32,455 bases of DNA, taken from contig CP070718.1 in NCBI GenBank assembly GCA_020350565.1, positions 2,988,110 through 3,020,564 of the forward strand. Direction: 5' to 3'. Position 1 is the first letter of the stretch. The number at the start of each line of letters is the position of its first letter. Made by a program: the position numbers and the translations under genes. Positions 21,073-31,637 of the stretch are shown here, in pieces. The notes below the pieces were generated by a model that worked only from the letters and a program-made list of their open reading frames with translations, ran no database searches and was not told the DNA's origin. This DNA comes from Phycisphaerales bacterium. GTDB lineage: Bacteria; Planctomycetota; Phycisphaerae; UBA1845.

Positions 21073-22233
21073 TTACCAGTTCTCCGTCCCCCACGGTTCC
21101 TCGAACATGCGGACGTAGCTTTCGTATCGTTCCGGATGGATGAGGCCGGCCTCCACGGCCGCCTTGACCGCGCAGTCGGTCTCGTGCGTGTGCGTGCAGT
21201 CGGGGAACTTGCAGTCGGGGATGTGGGGCTGGAACTCGAGGAAGTGGACCTCGATCTCGCCCTTCTCCACGGTCGAGATGTCCAGCGATTTGACGCCGGG
21301 CGTGTCGACCACGTAGCCGCCGAGCCGCAGGCGGATCAAGGTGGCCGTCGAGGTCGTGTGCCGGCCCTTCTGCGTCTGCTCGACGATATCGCCGATCTGC
21401 AGGTTGAGGTCCGGCTGGACGGCATTGAGCAGGGAACTCTTCCCCACACCGCTTTGTCCCGCGATGACGGATGACTTGCCTTTGAGTACCTCCTTCAGGA
21501 CATCGACGCCCTCGCCCGTGACTGCGGAGGAGCTCAGCGTGCGGTAGCCCAGAACCTCATAGCGCTCCAGGATGGGCGCGCCGAAACCCCGGTCGTCCAA
21601 GTCCATCTTGTTCATACAGACGACCGGCGTGATGCCGCCCGCGAGCGAAGCCACGATGTAGCGGTCGATCAAGTGCGGTTTGGGATCGGGCTCGGCCGTG
21701 GAACTGACGATGACGGCCTGATCGATGTTGGCCGCGATCGTATGCACGCGCCTGCGGGCCCGTCGGCGAAGCTGGCTCTTGCGATCGGCCACCCGCTCGA
21801 TGACACCTTCCTGCACAACGCCCTCGGCTTCTTTCGCGACGCGAAAGTCCACCTGGTCGCCGACGGTGACGCGGTGGCGCTCTTCCGTCCGCCGGGTGCG
21901 CAAAATGCGCCGCACGGTGCAAGGCCAGATGCGGTCGCCGTCATCGACCTCGGCAAACAGGCCTCGCATCGCCACCACCACGCCGGACCGGAGGTCTTCG
22001 ATCAGCTCGTTGCCCTCATCGTCGACGATGATCGTCCGCTGCCGCGAGAGGTCCCCTTTAGGTGTGACACGCTCCTCGAGCGCGTCATCAATGTGGAAGT
22101 CCTCAGCCTCATGGGCCTTTGAAGTCCAGTCCTTCTCCCGGCGAGGCTGCTGGCGGTTGCGGCGGAAAGGCACACGGAGCTTTCGGCCCTTTCGGCCCTT
22201 GCCGGCTTTGGGATTGTCCTTTCGAGGGGCCAT
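21073..22233 (-). CDS. rsgA: Ribosome small-subunit biogenesis GTPase RsgA
   Basis: RsgA is a circularly permuted GTPase that checks late maturation of the 30S subunit. The 386-residue protein shows the permuted motif order: NKMD (208-211) before the P-loop GQSGVGKS (259-266) and then DTPG (310-313). An OB-fold precedes (about 83-155). A C-terminal zinc knuckle has Cys341, Cys346, His348 and Cys354 (PDCKFPDCTHTHETDC). The N-terminal extension of about 80 residues is longer than in E. coli and very basic (GKGRKGRKLR), fitting rRNA contact. No strong binding site precedes the ATG at 22233. A decayed second copy of its 5' part lies at about 25.8-26.0 kb. Confidence 0.97.
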   Translation of the reverse strand: MAPRKDNPKAGKGRKGRKLRVPFRRNRQQPRREKDWTSKAHEAEDFHIDDALEERVTPKGDLSRQRTIIVDDEGNELIEDLRSGVVVAMRGLFAEVDDGDRIWPCTVRRILRTRRTEERHRVTVGDQVDFRVAKEAEGVVQEGVIERVADRKSQLRRRARRRVHTIAANIDQAVIVSSTAEPDPKPHLIDRYIVASLAGGITPVVCMNKMDLDDRGFGAPILERYEVLGYRTLSSSAVTGEGVDVLKEVLKGKSSVIAGQSGVGKSSLLNAVQPDLNLQIGDIVEQTQKGRHTTSTATLIRLRLGGYVVDTPGVKSLDISTVEKGEIEVHFLEFQPHIPDCKFPDCTHTHETDCAVKAAVEAGLIHPERYESYVRMFEEPWGTENW

Positions 22234-22250
22234 TCTTTTGCATCATTGTC

Positions 22251-22310
22251 CAAAATGCGCGACGAGGATGTCAAGTAATGGCGAATGGCGAATTCAGAAT
22301 GGCGAGTGAT
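22251..22310. repeat. Short repeat upstream of rsgA, shared with 26.2 kb
   Basis: This stretch contains caaaatgcgcgacgaggatg followed by tandem cgaatg/gaattc units. A related stretch at 26205-26270 has caaaatgcataaagaggatg, also followed by a cgaatg and an attctgaatg unit. Both lie immediately upstream of an rsgA-like 5' end on the minus strand, so the duplication included the leader. The tandem gaatg units also look like intergenic repeat DNA. Confidence 0.55.
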
Positions 22311-22569: not shown

Positions 22570-25053
22570 TTAGCGCGCGCCGCCATGCCCTTGGCCGTGG
22601 GCGCCCAGGCGTTCCTTGATCAGCCCTTTCGCCCGCAACTCAGCCACGTCGAAGCCTCGGGACTGTGCATAGTCCGGCGTCAGCATGATATCCACGTTGC
22701 TGTCGACGATCCGCTGACGGCCCTTATGGTTCACCCAGAACGTCGTCTGTGTCGGCACCAGGTCGCTGCCGACCTCGGTAACGGCGAATTGCACCGCCTC
22801 GAGTTCGTCAGCAACGTCCTCTGACAAGGAGTCATAGTCAGCGACGAAACCGTCAGGCGGCTCCACCGTGACGGTGACGCCCCAGTCCCCAATGCTGTCG
22901 AACACAAAGGGATACAGCTCCGTCGTATCTTCCCAGAGCATGAACTCCGGCTCGATAATCAGCAGCTCCGAACCGGTGAGCCTCGTGGTCTTGCCCGGCA
23001 CTTTTTTGCCGTCGATCCGCTCGATCTGTTGGAGGTGTTTGTACATCACCTCGCCATCGGCCAAGTCGCCGGCGCTGACGCCGAGCGGATCAGGCAACAC
23101 GGTCTTGGTCGCGTCCGCCGAGATCACAATGTAATCGCCCGGCAGCAGGTCGATCGTGCACACACCACTCCCATCCGTGGTACAACAGTTCACCGGATCG
23201 CACGGTTCGGTATCGGCCGTGCCGTCCCCGTCAAGATCACCAAGCGCGATGCACGCATAGTGCTGGTGCGAGATGCCGCCGCAATCCGTCAGGGCACAAC
23301 TACCCTCGGACTTGTCGTAGGCACAGACCTCGATGTCCTCGAGGGGGGTCTTGGTGGAACCGGGGTGAGCGCCGGAACCGACAGTGTGCTTTACCGCCGA
23401 GACAACGATCGCCGCGGTGAATTCCTCGGTCGTGACGTGGGCGATGTACATGCCGAAGTCACTGCTGGTAGAACCGCCGAACTTGGCGAGGAAGGCCACG
23501 TCGTTATCGTTGTTGATCGACCTATAGTGGCCGGAACGTACGTCGCCGAATTGGTAAAGGTCCGGACTGAACGCCCCGCTGTGCCCGAGGTCGGCTTGTG
23601 CCGTTGTGGAGTCGACGATGCGCACGGGCTCCATGGCGCACGCGTCGTAGAAGTAAACGCCATTGAGTAGCAGACCACTCTCGTCAACGCCGCTGGCCCA
23701 GAATGCCATATGGCCGTCGTCATTAATCGCGGCACTCCCACCGCCATCGAAGTACCTTAATTCGGCATCGCTCAGCGGATTTAAACCGGGCGGGATCGAC
23801 TCTTTGTCGGCGACGACCTGAAGCGAGCCGTCCCCAACGTCCGCGGCGTAGATCCCCTGGTCGTTGCTCTTGCCGCTGTTGCTGACCCGGGCGAAGCAGC
23901 CCATCTGACCGGCTTCATTGATCGTCGCGAAGTTGATAACGTCGAAGTAAGCCTCCTCCAGTCTATTCGGCACGAGGAAATCGCCGAAGTTGTCGACGAT
24001 TCGGGAGTGCTCGCCGGATGCGTTGACGGCGTAGAGACCCCACCCGCCGTCAGGCCTGTTCCGGAAAACGATCGTCCCCGCGTTGTTGATGTCCGGGCCG
24101 GAAAAATCGTCGCTGTAGCTATGGTCAGTGGTTTCGCTGCCGGGAGCGGGCCATAAACGAAAAGCCTCAGTCGTGACGTCACCGCCGGTGACAGGGACGG
24201 TAAAGATGCCCGTGAGTAATGCTGTGCCGGGCCGAAACTGCCCGCTAAAAGCAACGGTGCCTGAGTTGTTGATGGCGAACTCCGAACTGACCGTGATGAA
24301 TGTGTAGGTAGACGGCTGATCAACGGGGTGGATCGTCTGGGTGCTGTCGGCCAGGAGTACCGGTGTACCGCCGTTAACTGTGGTTCCGTAGACTCCGTGG
24401 TGTAGGGCTCCACTGAGATTGAAATTCCCCCAGAAGACGACCTCACCGCTGTCGTTCAGTGACGCGGGCATGTTCCCCAAAGGGTCGATAAACAGGTTGG
24501 AGAATTTGGTCGACTCGTCTTGGGCCGGGACGCTCGTCGTGGTGTCGACAAGCTTGACGATCGGCCCACCGGTGGTCGTCGTGGCAAACAGACCGTACGG
24601 GTAGGTGCCCGATGAGGGGTCGTGGAATCGGGCCCAAAAGACCACGTCGCCCACGTTGTTGAGCAGCGGTGCGTTGTTGGCCGTGGTATGCACAAATTGG
24701 TAGAAGCTAGCGCCGTCGTGACCGGGGACTTCAGTCGTGCGGTTGCCCGCGGTGTCCACCAGAACCGTCAGGGGCTGGCCGGGTCTGTAGACGTAGATTC
24801 CCTCGGCATCGGCCGACGACGGACCGCTCTTCGCACGGAACACCACTTCACCAAGATCGTTGATAGACGGCGGCTGCACGTAAGACCCGCCGACGAACAC
24901 AATTCCCGCCGACCGACCCGGTACGGGATCCCCGCTCTTTACGATCTCCTCGATCGTCACAGTCGCAGCCGCCGCAGGTCCTGCGGCTCCGACGACAAGC
25001 AAGACCGCACATGTCAACTGTAAGTCCTTTTTCGCCCGACCAATCACATTCAT
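22570..25053 (-). CDS. Secreted tandem-repeat protein (beta-propeller-like)
   Basis: This 827-residue protein is exported: a signal peptide of about 28 residues ends in AAGPAAAA. The next 500 residues hold about eight repeats of roughly 55-65 residues. Each begins with a motif like INDLGEVVFRA, LNNVGDVVFWA, INNSGTVAFSG or INEAGQMGCFA, and continues to GIYVYRPG or GVYGTTVNGG and a LVDT-like strand, as expected for propeller blades. A later part has Cys-rich segments, DLDGDGTADTEPCDP (a calcium-loop-like motif), and an Ig-like tail. The C-terminus GAHGQGHGGAR is polar with no PEP-CTERM or anchor. GGGAGGAG sits 5 nt before the ATG at 25053; upstream in-frame codons to 25194 are discarded. The substrate is unknown. 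It resembles planctomycete surface or secreted proteins. Confidence 0.88.
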   Translation of the reverse strand: MNVIGRAKKDLQLTCAVLLVVGAAGPAAAATVTIEEIVKSGDPVPGRSAGIVFVGGSYVQPPSINDLGEVVFRAKSGPSSADAEGIYVYRPGQPLTVLVDTAGNRTTEVPGHDGASFYQFVHTTANNAPLLNNVGDVVFWARFHDPSSGTYPYGLFATTTTGGPIVKLVDTTTSVPAQDESTKFSNLFIDPLGNMPASLNDSGEVVFWGNFNLSGALHHGVYGTTVNGGTPVLLADSTQTIHPVDQPSTYTFITVSSEFAINNSGTVAFSGQFRPGTALLTGIFTVPVTGGDVTTEAFRLWPAPGSETTDHSYSDDFSGPDINNAGTIVFRNRPDGGWGLYAVNASGEHSRIVDNFGDFLVPNRLEEAYFDVINFATINEAGQMGCFARVSNSGKSNDQGIYAADVGDGSLQVVADKESIPPGLNPLSDAELRYFDGGGSAAINDDGHMAFWASGVDESGLLLNGVYFYDACAMEPVRIVDSTTAQADLGHSGAFSPDLYQFGDVRSGHYRSINNDNDVAFLAKFGGSTSSDFGMYIAHVTTEEFTAAIVVSAVKHTVGSGAHPGSTKTPLEDIEVCAYDKSEGSCALTDCGGISHQHYACIALGDLDGDGTADTEPCDPVNCCTTDGSGVCTIDLLPGDYIVISADATKTVLPDPLGVSAGDLADGEVMYKHLQQIERIDGKKVPGKTTRLTGSELLIIEPEFMLWEDTTELYPFVFDSIGDWGVTVTVEPPDGFVADYDSLSEDVADELEAVQFAVTEVGSDLVPTQTTFWVNHKGRQRIVDSNVDIMLTPDYAQSRGFDVAELRAKGLIKERLGAHGQGHGGAR

Positions 25054-25323
25054 TGTTACTCCTCCCGGAAAAAGCCACTCCCTCATACCCATGCAACACA
25101 GAGCGCACCCCCGACCGTCGGCTGACTGTCGGCAGCACATCGACGCGTACTCATGGTTGCGACGCGCGCAGGTAAAGCGGCGTAGAATTCTCAATATCCG
25201 GCCTACGGGCGGGTGTCGTCCGGGGTGAAGCGGATGCGAGAAGGCACATCGCCGAAAACGGAGTCGGTCTCGGGAGCCCCACGCTCATAACCCGGATTCC
25301 TCGCACCTCAGTGGGCGCTGAGA

Positions 25324-25438
25324 ACGCAGAGTTTTGTGGTGAAAGGAGTTGCGACAGAACTGCAGGCCGTCTCATTCCGGCCCTGCGCCGGCAACGCCGG
25401 TATCGCGCAACCTCCCTGTTTCTCCACGGTCTCTGCGT
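25324..25438. repeat. Imperfect inverted repeat pair, intergenic element
   Basis: The plus-strand segment at 25324-25353 (acgcagag, then gtggtgaaaggagttgcg) matches the minus-strand reading of 25405-25438 (acgcagag, then gtggagaaacagggaggttg) apart from small gaps. Together they form an imperfect palindrome of about 115 bp. The motif resembles the acgcagag...gtggagaaa type of dispersed intergenic repeat seen in many bacterial genomes. It may be a miniature mobile element. Confidence 0.45.
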
Positions 25439-25716
25439 GCCCCGCAGTGGGAAAGGCCGGCCAATAATGGGAAGAGCCGGCAGGTACTCTGCCGACTCTC
25501 TCCTGCCGTACACCCCACCTGCTTGTAATCATCCCAGATTACCAAAATTCACGCGCCGGATTCAAGACACCCCGACCGACAGGTCATGCTGAACCTCATC
25601 CTGTCACTCACCTGCCGTTTGCCGGCCAGAGAATCCTGCAAGACACTGCTTTCCCGCATTCGGGAATGCGGGGGGCAACTCAACGATCAACTCGATACCT
25701 TCTAGGCGGAAAACCT

Positions 25717-25743
25717 GTAAGCCACTTTTTTAAAACGGCTTAC
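25717..25743. repeat. 7-bp inverted repeat with A/T-rich centre
   Basis: Arms gtaagcc (25717-25723) and ggcttac (25737-25743) flank acttttttaaaac. On the plus strand it is followed by gatgttttt. It marks the place where similarity to rsgA stops on its left side, so it could be an insertion or deletion boundary. A weak terminator is another possibility. Confidence 0.35.
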
Positions 25744-25787
25744 GATGTTTTTGCCTGCCGATGCACGGCGGATGGAAGGCCGCGCTG

Positions 25788-26045
25788 GTTGCGGGCGATG
25801 CGTCACAGTCCACAGGGCGGGAACCTTTCGCCAGCATCAGTTTCGGAATAGAGGGCCCGCAGGGCCTCCACGACTGCAGACCGCGGGTTTTCAGTGAACT
25901 CATTGCGCTTGTCATCGTTGATAGTGATCCGATACCGCGAGAGACCCTCTCCGGGGCGTGGGACCTTCCTCCATAGGGTCTATCCCCTAGTCATCGGCTT
26001 GGCGGGCTTTTGCGGTCCAGTCCATCCCCGGGCGGAGCGGTTGGC
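25788..26045 (-). pseudogene. Decayed second copy of the 5' part of rsgA
   Basis: Read on the minus strand, 25958-25788 gives 57 codons that align without gaps to residues 57-113 of the intact RsgA in this window; about 27 are identical by eye. Examples are LSRYRITINDDKRNEF against LSRQRTIIVDDEGNEL, and NPRSAVVEALRAL against DLRSGVVVAMRGL. The same frame continues upstream to a Trp-Thr matching Trp36-Thr37 of RsgA. It is broken by TAG at 25980-25982 and TGA at 25803-25805. The region before it, up to about 26270, resembles the rsgA leader. The OB-fold is cut and the whole GTPase and zinc part is missing, so it is not functional. It is an ancient duplicate or an acquired paralogue. Confidence 0.8.
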
Positions 26046-26204
26046 CGTTACACTTGCAAGACACCTGGACCTCCCGGCCTCTCCACACCTTTCGCCTTTT
26101 GGAATGGCTCGTTCATCACGTGGTCAACAACATCTGTTCAGGTGCTGCGCAGCGGAACGTGCGGGCCGGGGGCTCTGGGCAAGTTGACCGAACGCACGAC
26201 TGTT

Positions 26205-26270
26205 CAAAATGCATAAAGAGGATGTCGAGAACGGTCGAATGTCACATTCTGAATGAAGAATGTGAAGTGC
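26205..26270. repeat. Leader-like repeat of the rsgA remnant, with a 9-bp hairpin
   Basis: This segment resembles 22251-22310 upstream of rsgA (caaaatgc...gaggatgtc...cgaatg...gaatg). It also contains a perfect 9-bp inverted repeat, tcacattct (26242-26250) and agaatgtga (26257-26265), with a 6-nt loop. Confidence 0.5.
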
Positions 26271-26309
26271 CGGGGGAGTTGTAGATGCACAGGCCCGTAA
26301 AAATGCAAG

Positions 26310-26338
26310 GCCGCCCGGCCTTTCTCAGGCCGGGCGGC
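26310..26338 (-). terminator. Strong intrinsic terminator on the minus strand
   Basis: A perfect 12-bp GC-rich stem (gccgcccggcct at 26310-26321 and aggccgggcggc at 26327-26338) with a 5-nt loop is followed on the minus strand by TTGCATTTTT. It is the only strong hairpin with a U-tail downstream of the 236-residue membrane-protein gene. That gene ends 326 nt earlier, so either a long 3' region or an unseen RNA or small gene lies between. Confidence 0.75.
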
Positions 26339-26664
26339 ACGTGCGTGGCGCAGAGGAGAGTGGGGTTCTATGCGTTGGGCACTGTGGTAGAAGGAGGATC
26401 GGTTATCAAATTCTATCTTCGATCGAGGCCCCGTTTGCTTCTTCGCCCGGGCCTCGGTTAAGCGAAATCTCTTTCGATTCAGCAGTCCGCCGCGCTTCCA
26501 AAGGTCCTTTCCGGCGACCGCTTACGTTCTGTTCACTGTGGTTATCGAGAGTCGGCAGAATGCGTTGCGTGGCATTTCATCTTTTCTTGAGCGATCGGCG
26601 GGCATCGTTGAACGGAGGCGCCTGACGGAGGCGTGGCAAGCGTCTTGGGCGATTCTTCGGTCTG
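26339..26664. other. Untranslated stretch before the terminator
   Basis: No supported gene is seen here. On the minus strand there is a hairpin at 26424-26456 (8-bp stem cgaggccc/gggcctcg), and an open frame of 56 codons that has no usable start codon. The stretch probably forms the 3' region of the membrane-protein transcript. A processed or independent small RNA ending at the 26310 terminator is possible. Confidence 0.35.
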
Positions 26665-27375
26665 CTATTCCTTCCGCTCGTCCTCGGCCAGGACGGCGTC
26701 CGCAATGGTTTGAATGGCGTGGTACTGCCGGGCAACGCAGCGCGCCATCTCCAGGCCGGCCCCTTTCTCGGGATCGTAGCCGCAGCATTCACCCGCCAGA
26801 ACGAGGGCACGAAACCGGTATTCCTCCTGGAAGGCACCTTCCTCCCGGAGTTGCCGGAAGACAGAGCTTACTTCCTGATCATCGATGGCCGCGCCCCCGC
26901 CGACCGTCGCGATCGGAGACGTAAAGGAATCTCTTTCGCTCTCGCCCCCATAAACAGCTTCGAGGACAACGGCGGCCACGTGATACCGGACAGCCGCGCA
27001 GAGGACCAGATTCAGATCGATCTCCCGCCCCGGCCGGTAGCCGCATTCGCGGTAAGCCTGCTGCAAGACATGCGCAGAGGCACCAGCGTATGTCGTGCCC
27101 GCCTGCTTGTAGGAGGAGGCCGACACCGCCAGACCGGCCACATCCACGTCCGTACCCCGGCATGCCGCGGTGACGGCTGGGTTACGCAGGTGTGAGCCAC
27201 TCGGCAGTTCGTCCGTGTCGGCAAGAGCCCGGAGCATCAGTCCCAGAACGATGAGACCACCAAAGGCCGCCAAAACGATGGACAGGAGGCGCGGATCCCG
27301 TGCCTTGCACAGACCGGGGAGCGCGATAAGCGCATCCAGGACGGCCCGAAGAAAGACCGCCAATCGCAATAGCAT
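26665..27375 (-). CDS. Membrane-anchored protein of unknown function
   Basis: This 236-residue protein has one clear membrane helix at about residues 30-50 (LLSIVLAAFGGLIVLGLMLRAL) after a short amphipathic N-terminus. A mostly helical soluble part of about 180 residues follows, containing several Cys residues (CRGTD, RECGYRPG, LVLCAAVRYH, GECCGYDPEKG). I do not recognise a family. By signal-anchor topology the soluble part may face the periplasm, where the cysteines could form disulfides. GGAAGG lies 7 nt before the ATG. The tRNA-binding protein gene ends 65 nt upstream on the same strand, so the two may share a transcript ending at the 26310 terminator. Confidence 0.82.
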   Translation of the reverse strand: MLLRLAVFLRAVLDALIALPGLCKARDPRLLSIVLAAFGGLIVLGLMLRALADTDELPSGSHLRNPAVTAACRGTDVDVAGLAVSASSYKQAGTTYAGASAHVLQQAYRECGYRPGREIDLNLVLCAAVRYHVAAVVLEAVYGGESERDSFTSPIATVGGGAAIDDQEVSSVFRQLREEGAFQEEYRFRALVLAGECCGYDPEKGAGLEMARCVARQYHAIQTIADAVLAEDERKE

Positions 27376-30164: not shown

Positions 30165-31637
30165 TTAATAGACGCGCGTAAGCTTGCAGCCGGGATAATA
30201 GAAGCGAAGGATCTCGGCCGCCTTCGTCCCTTCCAGCGCCTGACCGTGGGCGCCCCACTGGCACAACCCGAGCCCGTGACCGAAGCCCTTGCCGTTCTCG
30301 ATGATCACGCTGCCGCGTCGCAGACGAATGTCGCAGTAGGTGCTCCGCATCTCGCGTGAGCCGACAGCCAATCGGAAGTGCTCGGCCAGCATCTCATAGG
30401 ATTCGCCGCTCGTCCCGGCGATTCGGTAGCGTACCGCCCGACCTCCCGCCGCTCGTTCGATCACATCGATGGCCTCCAGCGCGCCGAACGACGCAAGGTT
30501 GGGGTATCGATCCGTCAGGCGTTTCATCAATTCCTGGGCGGGGAGCTTGACGGGGCCCCAGCGATAGGCGCCGGACGGGGCCACCTCACAGAATTCGCAA
30601 CGGACGCCCCCTCGAAGCGGAGGTACATCGTCGGCCGTTCCGAAGATGACCGCGGACTGGCTCATTCCTCCACAGGCCGCGTGGTAATACGTCGAGAAAA
30701 TCCGATCCTCACCGTCCACCTCGTACGTGCACACCAGCCCGCGCGTGTACGCCGCTGCTGCAGCAGCCTTGAGCCCCGTATTGTCGGTGCGCAGGCCGCG
30801 ATACACCTGCGCCCCCTCACCGGCGGTGATGTCGTAGCGCGCGTTCTTGCGGCGGTCCATCTGATAAAGAGCGTAGGTCCGCGCGATGATGGCCTGCGCG
30901 CGGTAGGCCTCGACATGGAAGGTCGGCCAGACTTCGTTAGCCACAACCGCCGCGACGTAGCTCTCCAGGTCGACGTGATTGATCACCTCGATGCAATTGC
31001 CCTCGTTGGCGGCCAGTCGCACACTGCCTGCGTAAGCCCGCTCCTTGGACCACTTGTCATCCTGATAAATGGAGATCGTCAGCGGCACCCGTTCCTGCGG
31101 CTCGAGCGCCACCGCGCTTATCCCTTTCGATTCACCGGGCAGCAACAAGCCACCGGAAGGGTCCGGTGCCACCACCGTCCACTTTGCGGACGCATCGCCG
31201 TCCAGGACGCGACCCGCGCCCTCCAGGATACGAATCGGCTTCGGAGCGCGAAAACGCACCTGGTCAACGTCGGCTGCGATCAGAACTCGAACCGGGCGCA
31301 ACGGTGGGGGCGGCGCTGCCGGTGTCTTGAAGGCTGATGAATCACCCGAGTTGCAACCGACAAGCCAGAAAAGCAGCCATGGGAGGCAAGAAACAGTGCC
31401 CGCATGGCGCAGATGAGAAGTACGCGGCTTAGCTCTCCGTTGAAAAAGGGGACTGGCTCCGAGCGTAAGCCCACTGGCGCCTGTGAAAACGCCGTTCGGC
31501 GAGGTGCCTGTCCCCTTTTTCAACGGACTCTTAGGTGCTTCGATGACGTGTTCACGCCAGGGGCATGACTTGCGACCGGGAGACGCCGAAACCGTGGGCC
31601 GGCCTCCGAACGGTAGACAGTCTCGTCCCAGAATCAT
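30165..31637 (-). CDS. SpoIID/LytB-domain lipoprotein; 5' end uncertain
   Basis: The conserved part is a SpoIID/LytB (amidase-enhancer-like) domain, associated with peptidoglycan glycan processing. Motifs are HVDLESYVAAVVANEVWP, YRAQAIIARTYAL, YYHAACGG, and at the C-terminus GHGLGLCQWGAHGQ followed by AAEILRFYYPG. A lipobox (LLFWLVGC, Cys95 in the longest frame) implies export and lipidation. The only standard start codon in frame is the ATG at 31637. The first 75 codons, however, run through a REP-like palindrome (31436-31527) and look non-native. A signal peptide would naturally begin near codon 76 (about 31412), where the codon is CTG. Either that codon is used, or a small indel or repeat insertion has displaced the start. 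Domain call secure, start not. Confidence 0.85.
   Translation of the reverse strand: MILGRDCLPFGGRPTVSASPGRKSCPWREHVIEAPKSPLKKGTGTSPNGVFTGASGLTLGASPLFQRRAKPRTSHLRHAGTVSCLPWLLFWLVGCNSGDSSAFKTPAAPPPPLRPVRVLIAADVDQVRFRAPKPIRILEGAGRVLDGDASAKWTVVAPDPSGGLLLPGESKGISAVALEPQERVPLTISIYQDDKWSKERAYAGSVRLAANEGNCIEVINHVDLESYVAAVVANEVWPTFHVEAYRAQAIIARTYALYQMDRRKNARYDITAGEGAQVYRGLRTDNTGLKAAAAAAYTRGLVCTYEVDGEDRIFSTYYHAACGGMSQSAVIFGTADDVPPLRGGVRCEFCEVAPSGAYRWGPVKLPAQELMKRLTDRYPNLASFGALEAIDVIERAAGGRAVRYRIAGTSGESYEMLAEHFRLAVGSREMRSTYCDIRLRRGSVIIENGKGFGHGLGLCQWGAHGQALEGTKAAEILRFYYPGCKLTRVY
31436..31527. repeat. REP-like palindromic element
   Basis: Perfect 18-bp arms (tccgttgaaaaaggggac at 31436-31453 and its complement at 31510-31527) flank 56 nt. 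Beyond the perfect part the arms continue with ggcNcc similarity, giving the tgaaaaaggggacaggcacc motif. That motif is known from REP-type intergenic elements mobilised by REP-associated (RAYT, Y1) transposases. No transposase gene is in the window. It sits at the 5' end of the SpoIID-domain gene. Confidence 0.75.

Follow-up and report, generated by a model that had tools for sequence, protein, structure and literature searches.

This locus raises the question of whether a short minus-strand stretch, upstream of a gene for a repeat protein, is what is left of a second copy of rsgA and, if so, where this copy came from and how it decayed. RsgA is a ribosome-assembly GTPase, and the Phycisphaerales genome studied here (a single contig of 3.80 Mb) contains only one intact rsgA gene. 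This gene lies in the window, i.e., the whole analysed stretch of 32,455 nucleotides (contig positions 2988110–3020564), together with the following features, given in window coordinates:

21073–22233, minus strand: intact rsgA, 386 aa (RsgA_GTPase PF03193, E 2.2e-53)
22240–22308, minus strand: leader of intact rsgA, with TTGACA-N18-GACAAT; its outer part is a dispersed repeat
22570–25194, minus strand: DUF7453 (PF24251) repeat-protein gene, between the remnant and intact rsgA
25195–25781, no strand assigned: non-coding DNA in place of the absent 3' part of the second rsgA, not clearly similar to any other part of the window
25782–26106, minus strand: rsgA pseudogene remnant (rsgA nucleotides 18–345, codons 6–115)
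26107–26193, minus strand: leader-to-coding gap of the remnant, 87 nt vs ~23 nt for intact rsgA (difference ~64 nt)
26194–26262, minus strand: remnant leader; its outer half (26228–26262) aligns with the dispersed repeat, and its inner half is 26194–26227

A whole-genome tblastn-type search with the RsgA protein of the window returned three places, namely the intact gene, 25782–26042 and 25945–26100. The minus strand of 25782–26042 matches RsgA residues 30–115 (E 2.7e-10, 40% identity) with one TGA and one TAG in frame, and 25945–26100 matches residues 9–60 in a second frame (E 9e-4), the frame change falling around 25950, between the two matching stretches. At the DNA level, rsgA nucleotides 18–345 align with window positions 26106–25782 at 63% identity over 328 columns, after which the similarity ends. 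The remnant is located on the same strand as intact rsgA, ~3.5 kb away. The preliminary description had confined it to 25788–26045 and RsgA residues 57–113; the similarity is longer and reaches rsgA nucleotide 18 (window 26106) with a change of frame. The count of about 27 identities over 57 codons given there is close to that obtained here, a gap-free block of 54 codons (window 25943–25782) with 27 identical residues. Nucleotide differences in this block number 16, 16 and 27 at codon positions 1, 2 and 3, respectively.

That a stretch unrelated to rsgA resembles it by chance has a vanishingly small probability. The top protein alignment score between the remnant and RsgA is 132; 300 dinucleotide shuffles reach no more than 55 and window tiles unrelated to rsgA no more than 53, and the DNA similarity is collinear and includes the leader. 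Together with the E-value, these observations rule out a chance match, for which no supporting point was found, and they place the earlier identification of a second rsgA well above background. The two disruptions described before were also found, a TAG near 25980 and a TGA near 25803, as was the absence of the GTPase domain and the C-terminal part, no RsgA similarity being present in 25195–25781. A functional RsgA paralogue at this place was rejected, given that the GTPase part and the C-terminus are absent, and no different intact gene was recognised at the remnant on either strand. Compared with RsgA (YjeQ), a GTPase of small-subunit maturation with the domains PF03193 and RsgA_N PF16745, the remnant matches the N-terminal extension and the first part of the N-terminal domain, but has no GTPase or C-terminal part and contains two stops and frame shifts. 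It is thus the broken and drifted front third of a second rsgA, whose missing 3' two thirds would have been either deleted or never copied.

The upstream DNA had been said to resemble the rsgA leader as well, and it does so at 71% over 69 nt (22240–22308 vs 26194–26262), but half of this match is a dispersed repeat. The outer 35 nt belong to a ATTCTGAATTCGCCATTCGCCATT-like element that recurs about 25 times elsewhere in the genome; the inner 34 nt, which match at 25/34 positions between the copies, have no clear counterpart in the rsgA regions of relatives. The inner leader of intact rsgA contains a candidate promoter, the sigma-70-like pair TTGACA-N18-GACAAT, and the putative equivalent in the remnant reads TCGACA-N18-AACAGT.

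Several repeated elements were observed in the window. The ATTCTGAATTCGCCATTCGCCATT repeat (22274–22308 and the about 25 other genomic places) is intergenic and dispersed, its copies being 77–96% alike and clustered in places. The stretch 25288–25350 has four matches of 78–82% in a genome of the same family (G023), where it represents a dispersed repeat family, and no further copy in its own genome at E up to 1. Residues 29–69 of the SpoIID-like ORF at 30165–31637 (window 31431–31553) show up to 76% identity to intergenic stretches elsewhere in the genome, and the 5' part of this ORF is therefore probably a dispersed repeat, so that translation may truly begin further in. A terminator-like perfect 12-bp inverted repeat with a 5-nt loop (GCCGCCCGGCCT) occupies 26310–26338, between the remnant and the gene that follows it.

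The comparison with relatives covered 50 other genomes of the family, the genus itself being represented by this genome alone. Trees were built from RsgA of 34 same-family and same-order loci, to which the remnant was added via alignment to its own gene. Own rsgA and the remnant form a sister pair with SH-aLRT/bootstrap support of 92.5/98 in the DNA tree and 97.1/99 in the protein tree; aligning the remnant through its own gene leans slightly towards this grouping, for which the shared leader provides independent support. Within the gap-free block, 36% of nucleotides differ between the remnant and own rsgA, compared to at least 45% between the remnant and each of the relatives. Nearly all change falls on the remnant branch of the DNA tree, with branch lengths of 0.68 for the remnant and 0.03 for own rsgA. 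Since the trees pair the two copies and the leader is shared, a duplication within this lineage is the best reading, and the remnant is very probably a duplicate of own rsgA that decayed beside it. Of the two origins in the preliminary description, a duplication or an acquired paralogue, the tree favours the former over a paralogue from one of the sampled genera.

The tree would look the same with a donor that stands nearer than the sampled genera, and the dispersed repeats at the leaders are possible recombination points. A close sister species might thus have supplied the second copy by horizontal transfer, or the intact copy might be the incoming one and the remnant the old resident, the loser having decayed in either case. 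We consider such a transfer unlikely: no such donor occurs among the family genomes examined, the GC content is similar (0.61 in the remnant, 0.64 in rsgA), and the same strand, adjacency and common lineage-specific leader are most simply explained by tandem duplication, which we infer rather than entry from a sister species. No simple tandem unit can be recognised any longer, since the stretches tested contain no duplicate of the DUF7453 gene that separates the copies; a second DUF7453 piece beside the copies (downstream of rsgA), which would mark a duplication unit, was not found there.

Among the 50 other family genomes, the remnant was not seen in any, and DNA searches with the remnant in 60 relatives and with the gap in the whole family yielded nothing beyond a short dispersed repeat, present in a single genome. 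No intact second rsgA is preserved at the place of the remnant in the relatives compared. The 36 rsgA regions from relatives have no shared neighbours, except for one weak partial match, so that gene order around rsgA is essentially not shared. No relevant publication emerged from a literature search for rsgA duplication in planctomycetes. Elsewhere in the family, genome G030 has two intact rsgA genes (L047 and L048) on different contigs with 56% mutual identity, representing either a real second copy or contamination, and four genomes (G008, G022, G024 and G031, the last listed as 97% complete) have no RsgA match.

The two copies differ in how they have changed. Of the first and second codon positions on which 80% or more of the relatives agree, 28 are changed in the remnant and one in intact rsgA. 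Divergence between the copies is 0.38 (0.29–0.49) at zero-fold sites (K0) and 0.82 (0.51–1.34) at four-fold sites (K4), giving a K4/K0 ratio of 2.2 (1.2–3.8), an interval whose width reflects the generally low conservation of the N-terminal part of RsgA. A ratio of 2 is expected if one copy was unconstrained from the start and the other tolerated only silent changes; pairs of functional orthologues mostly give 2–6. These values fit a scenario in which coding constraint on the remnant ended about when the duplication arose. In the proposed history, a stretch of DNA comprising the rsgA leader and no fewer than the first 115 codons would have been duplicated beside the original in this lineage, and selection would have maintained one copy as the functional RsgA. 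In the other, coding constraint would have ceased with the duplication or shortly afterwards; this copy would have accumulated stops and indels and drifted freely, having lost everything beyond codon 115 or never possessed that part, and would now be intergenic DNA without function, located upstream of the DUF7453 gene.

Judged from these divergences, the remnant appears old for dead DNA in a bacterium, with ~0.38 neutral substitutions per site, which supports its earlier characterisation as old. This is much for a bacterial pseudogene, since those of Salmonella are mostly young and highly degraded ones are rare (Kuo and Ochman 2010, PMC2916853). In that set, 346 of the 378 Salmonella pseudogenes have a single inactivating mutation (PMC2916853). 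The remark in the preliminary description that such age is unusual for functionless bacterial DNA accords with this Salmonella work. The remnant is likewise a disrupted copy with stops, indels, truncation and no coding constraint, but differs from them in having several lesions, about two thirds of the gene gone and ~0.38 substitutions per site. A 400-kb sample of the genome, screened with crude gene calls and for within-sample paralogues, contained two disrupted, stop-bearing paralogue fragments, one of them the remnant. The other fragment (L094:4846–5091) has 51% identity to its parent gene (L077:856–1716) and one stop.

Survival over ~0.38 substitutions per site without deletion is the one observation in favour of the stretch having been kept for a new role, whether as a leader with a regulatory function, as an RNA or as a short opposite-strand gene. 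We regard such a role as highly improbable. The predicted folds of both strands are less stable than those of shuffled sequences (z +2.0 and +1.4) and Rfam has no match in the window, and a structured RNA was rejected on these grounds. None of the ten ORFs in 25195–26924 on either strand matches Pfam, a plus-strand ORF of 97 aa that overlaps the remnant is without relatives among the 50 other genomes of the family, and the substitutions are spread over all codon positions. Equally improbable, in our judgement, is that the remnant is kept simply as DNA, e.g., as a spacer or regulatory region upstream of the DUF7453 gene; if true, retention at the DNA level would account for its survival beyond the point at which bacterial pseudogenes are usually deleted.

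Homology to rsgA, a disrupted frame, lost coding constraint and a sister relationship to the resident gene all characterise the remnant as a real but ordinary duplicate pseudogene, its only unusual trait being an apparent long escape from deletion. By itself it changes nothing for RsgA and its pathway. It provides one clean case of a bacterial duplicate with polarisable decay, and it suggests that dead DNA may last longer in this lineage than in enterobacteria.
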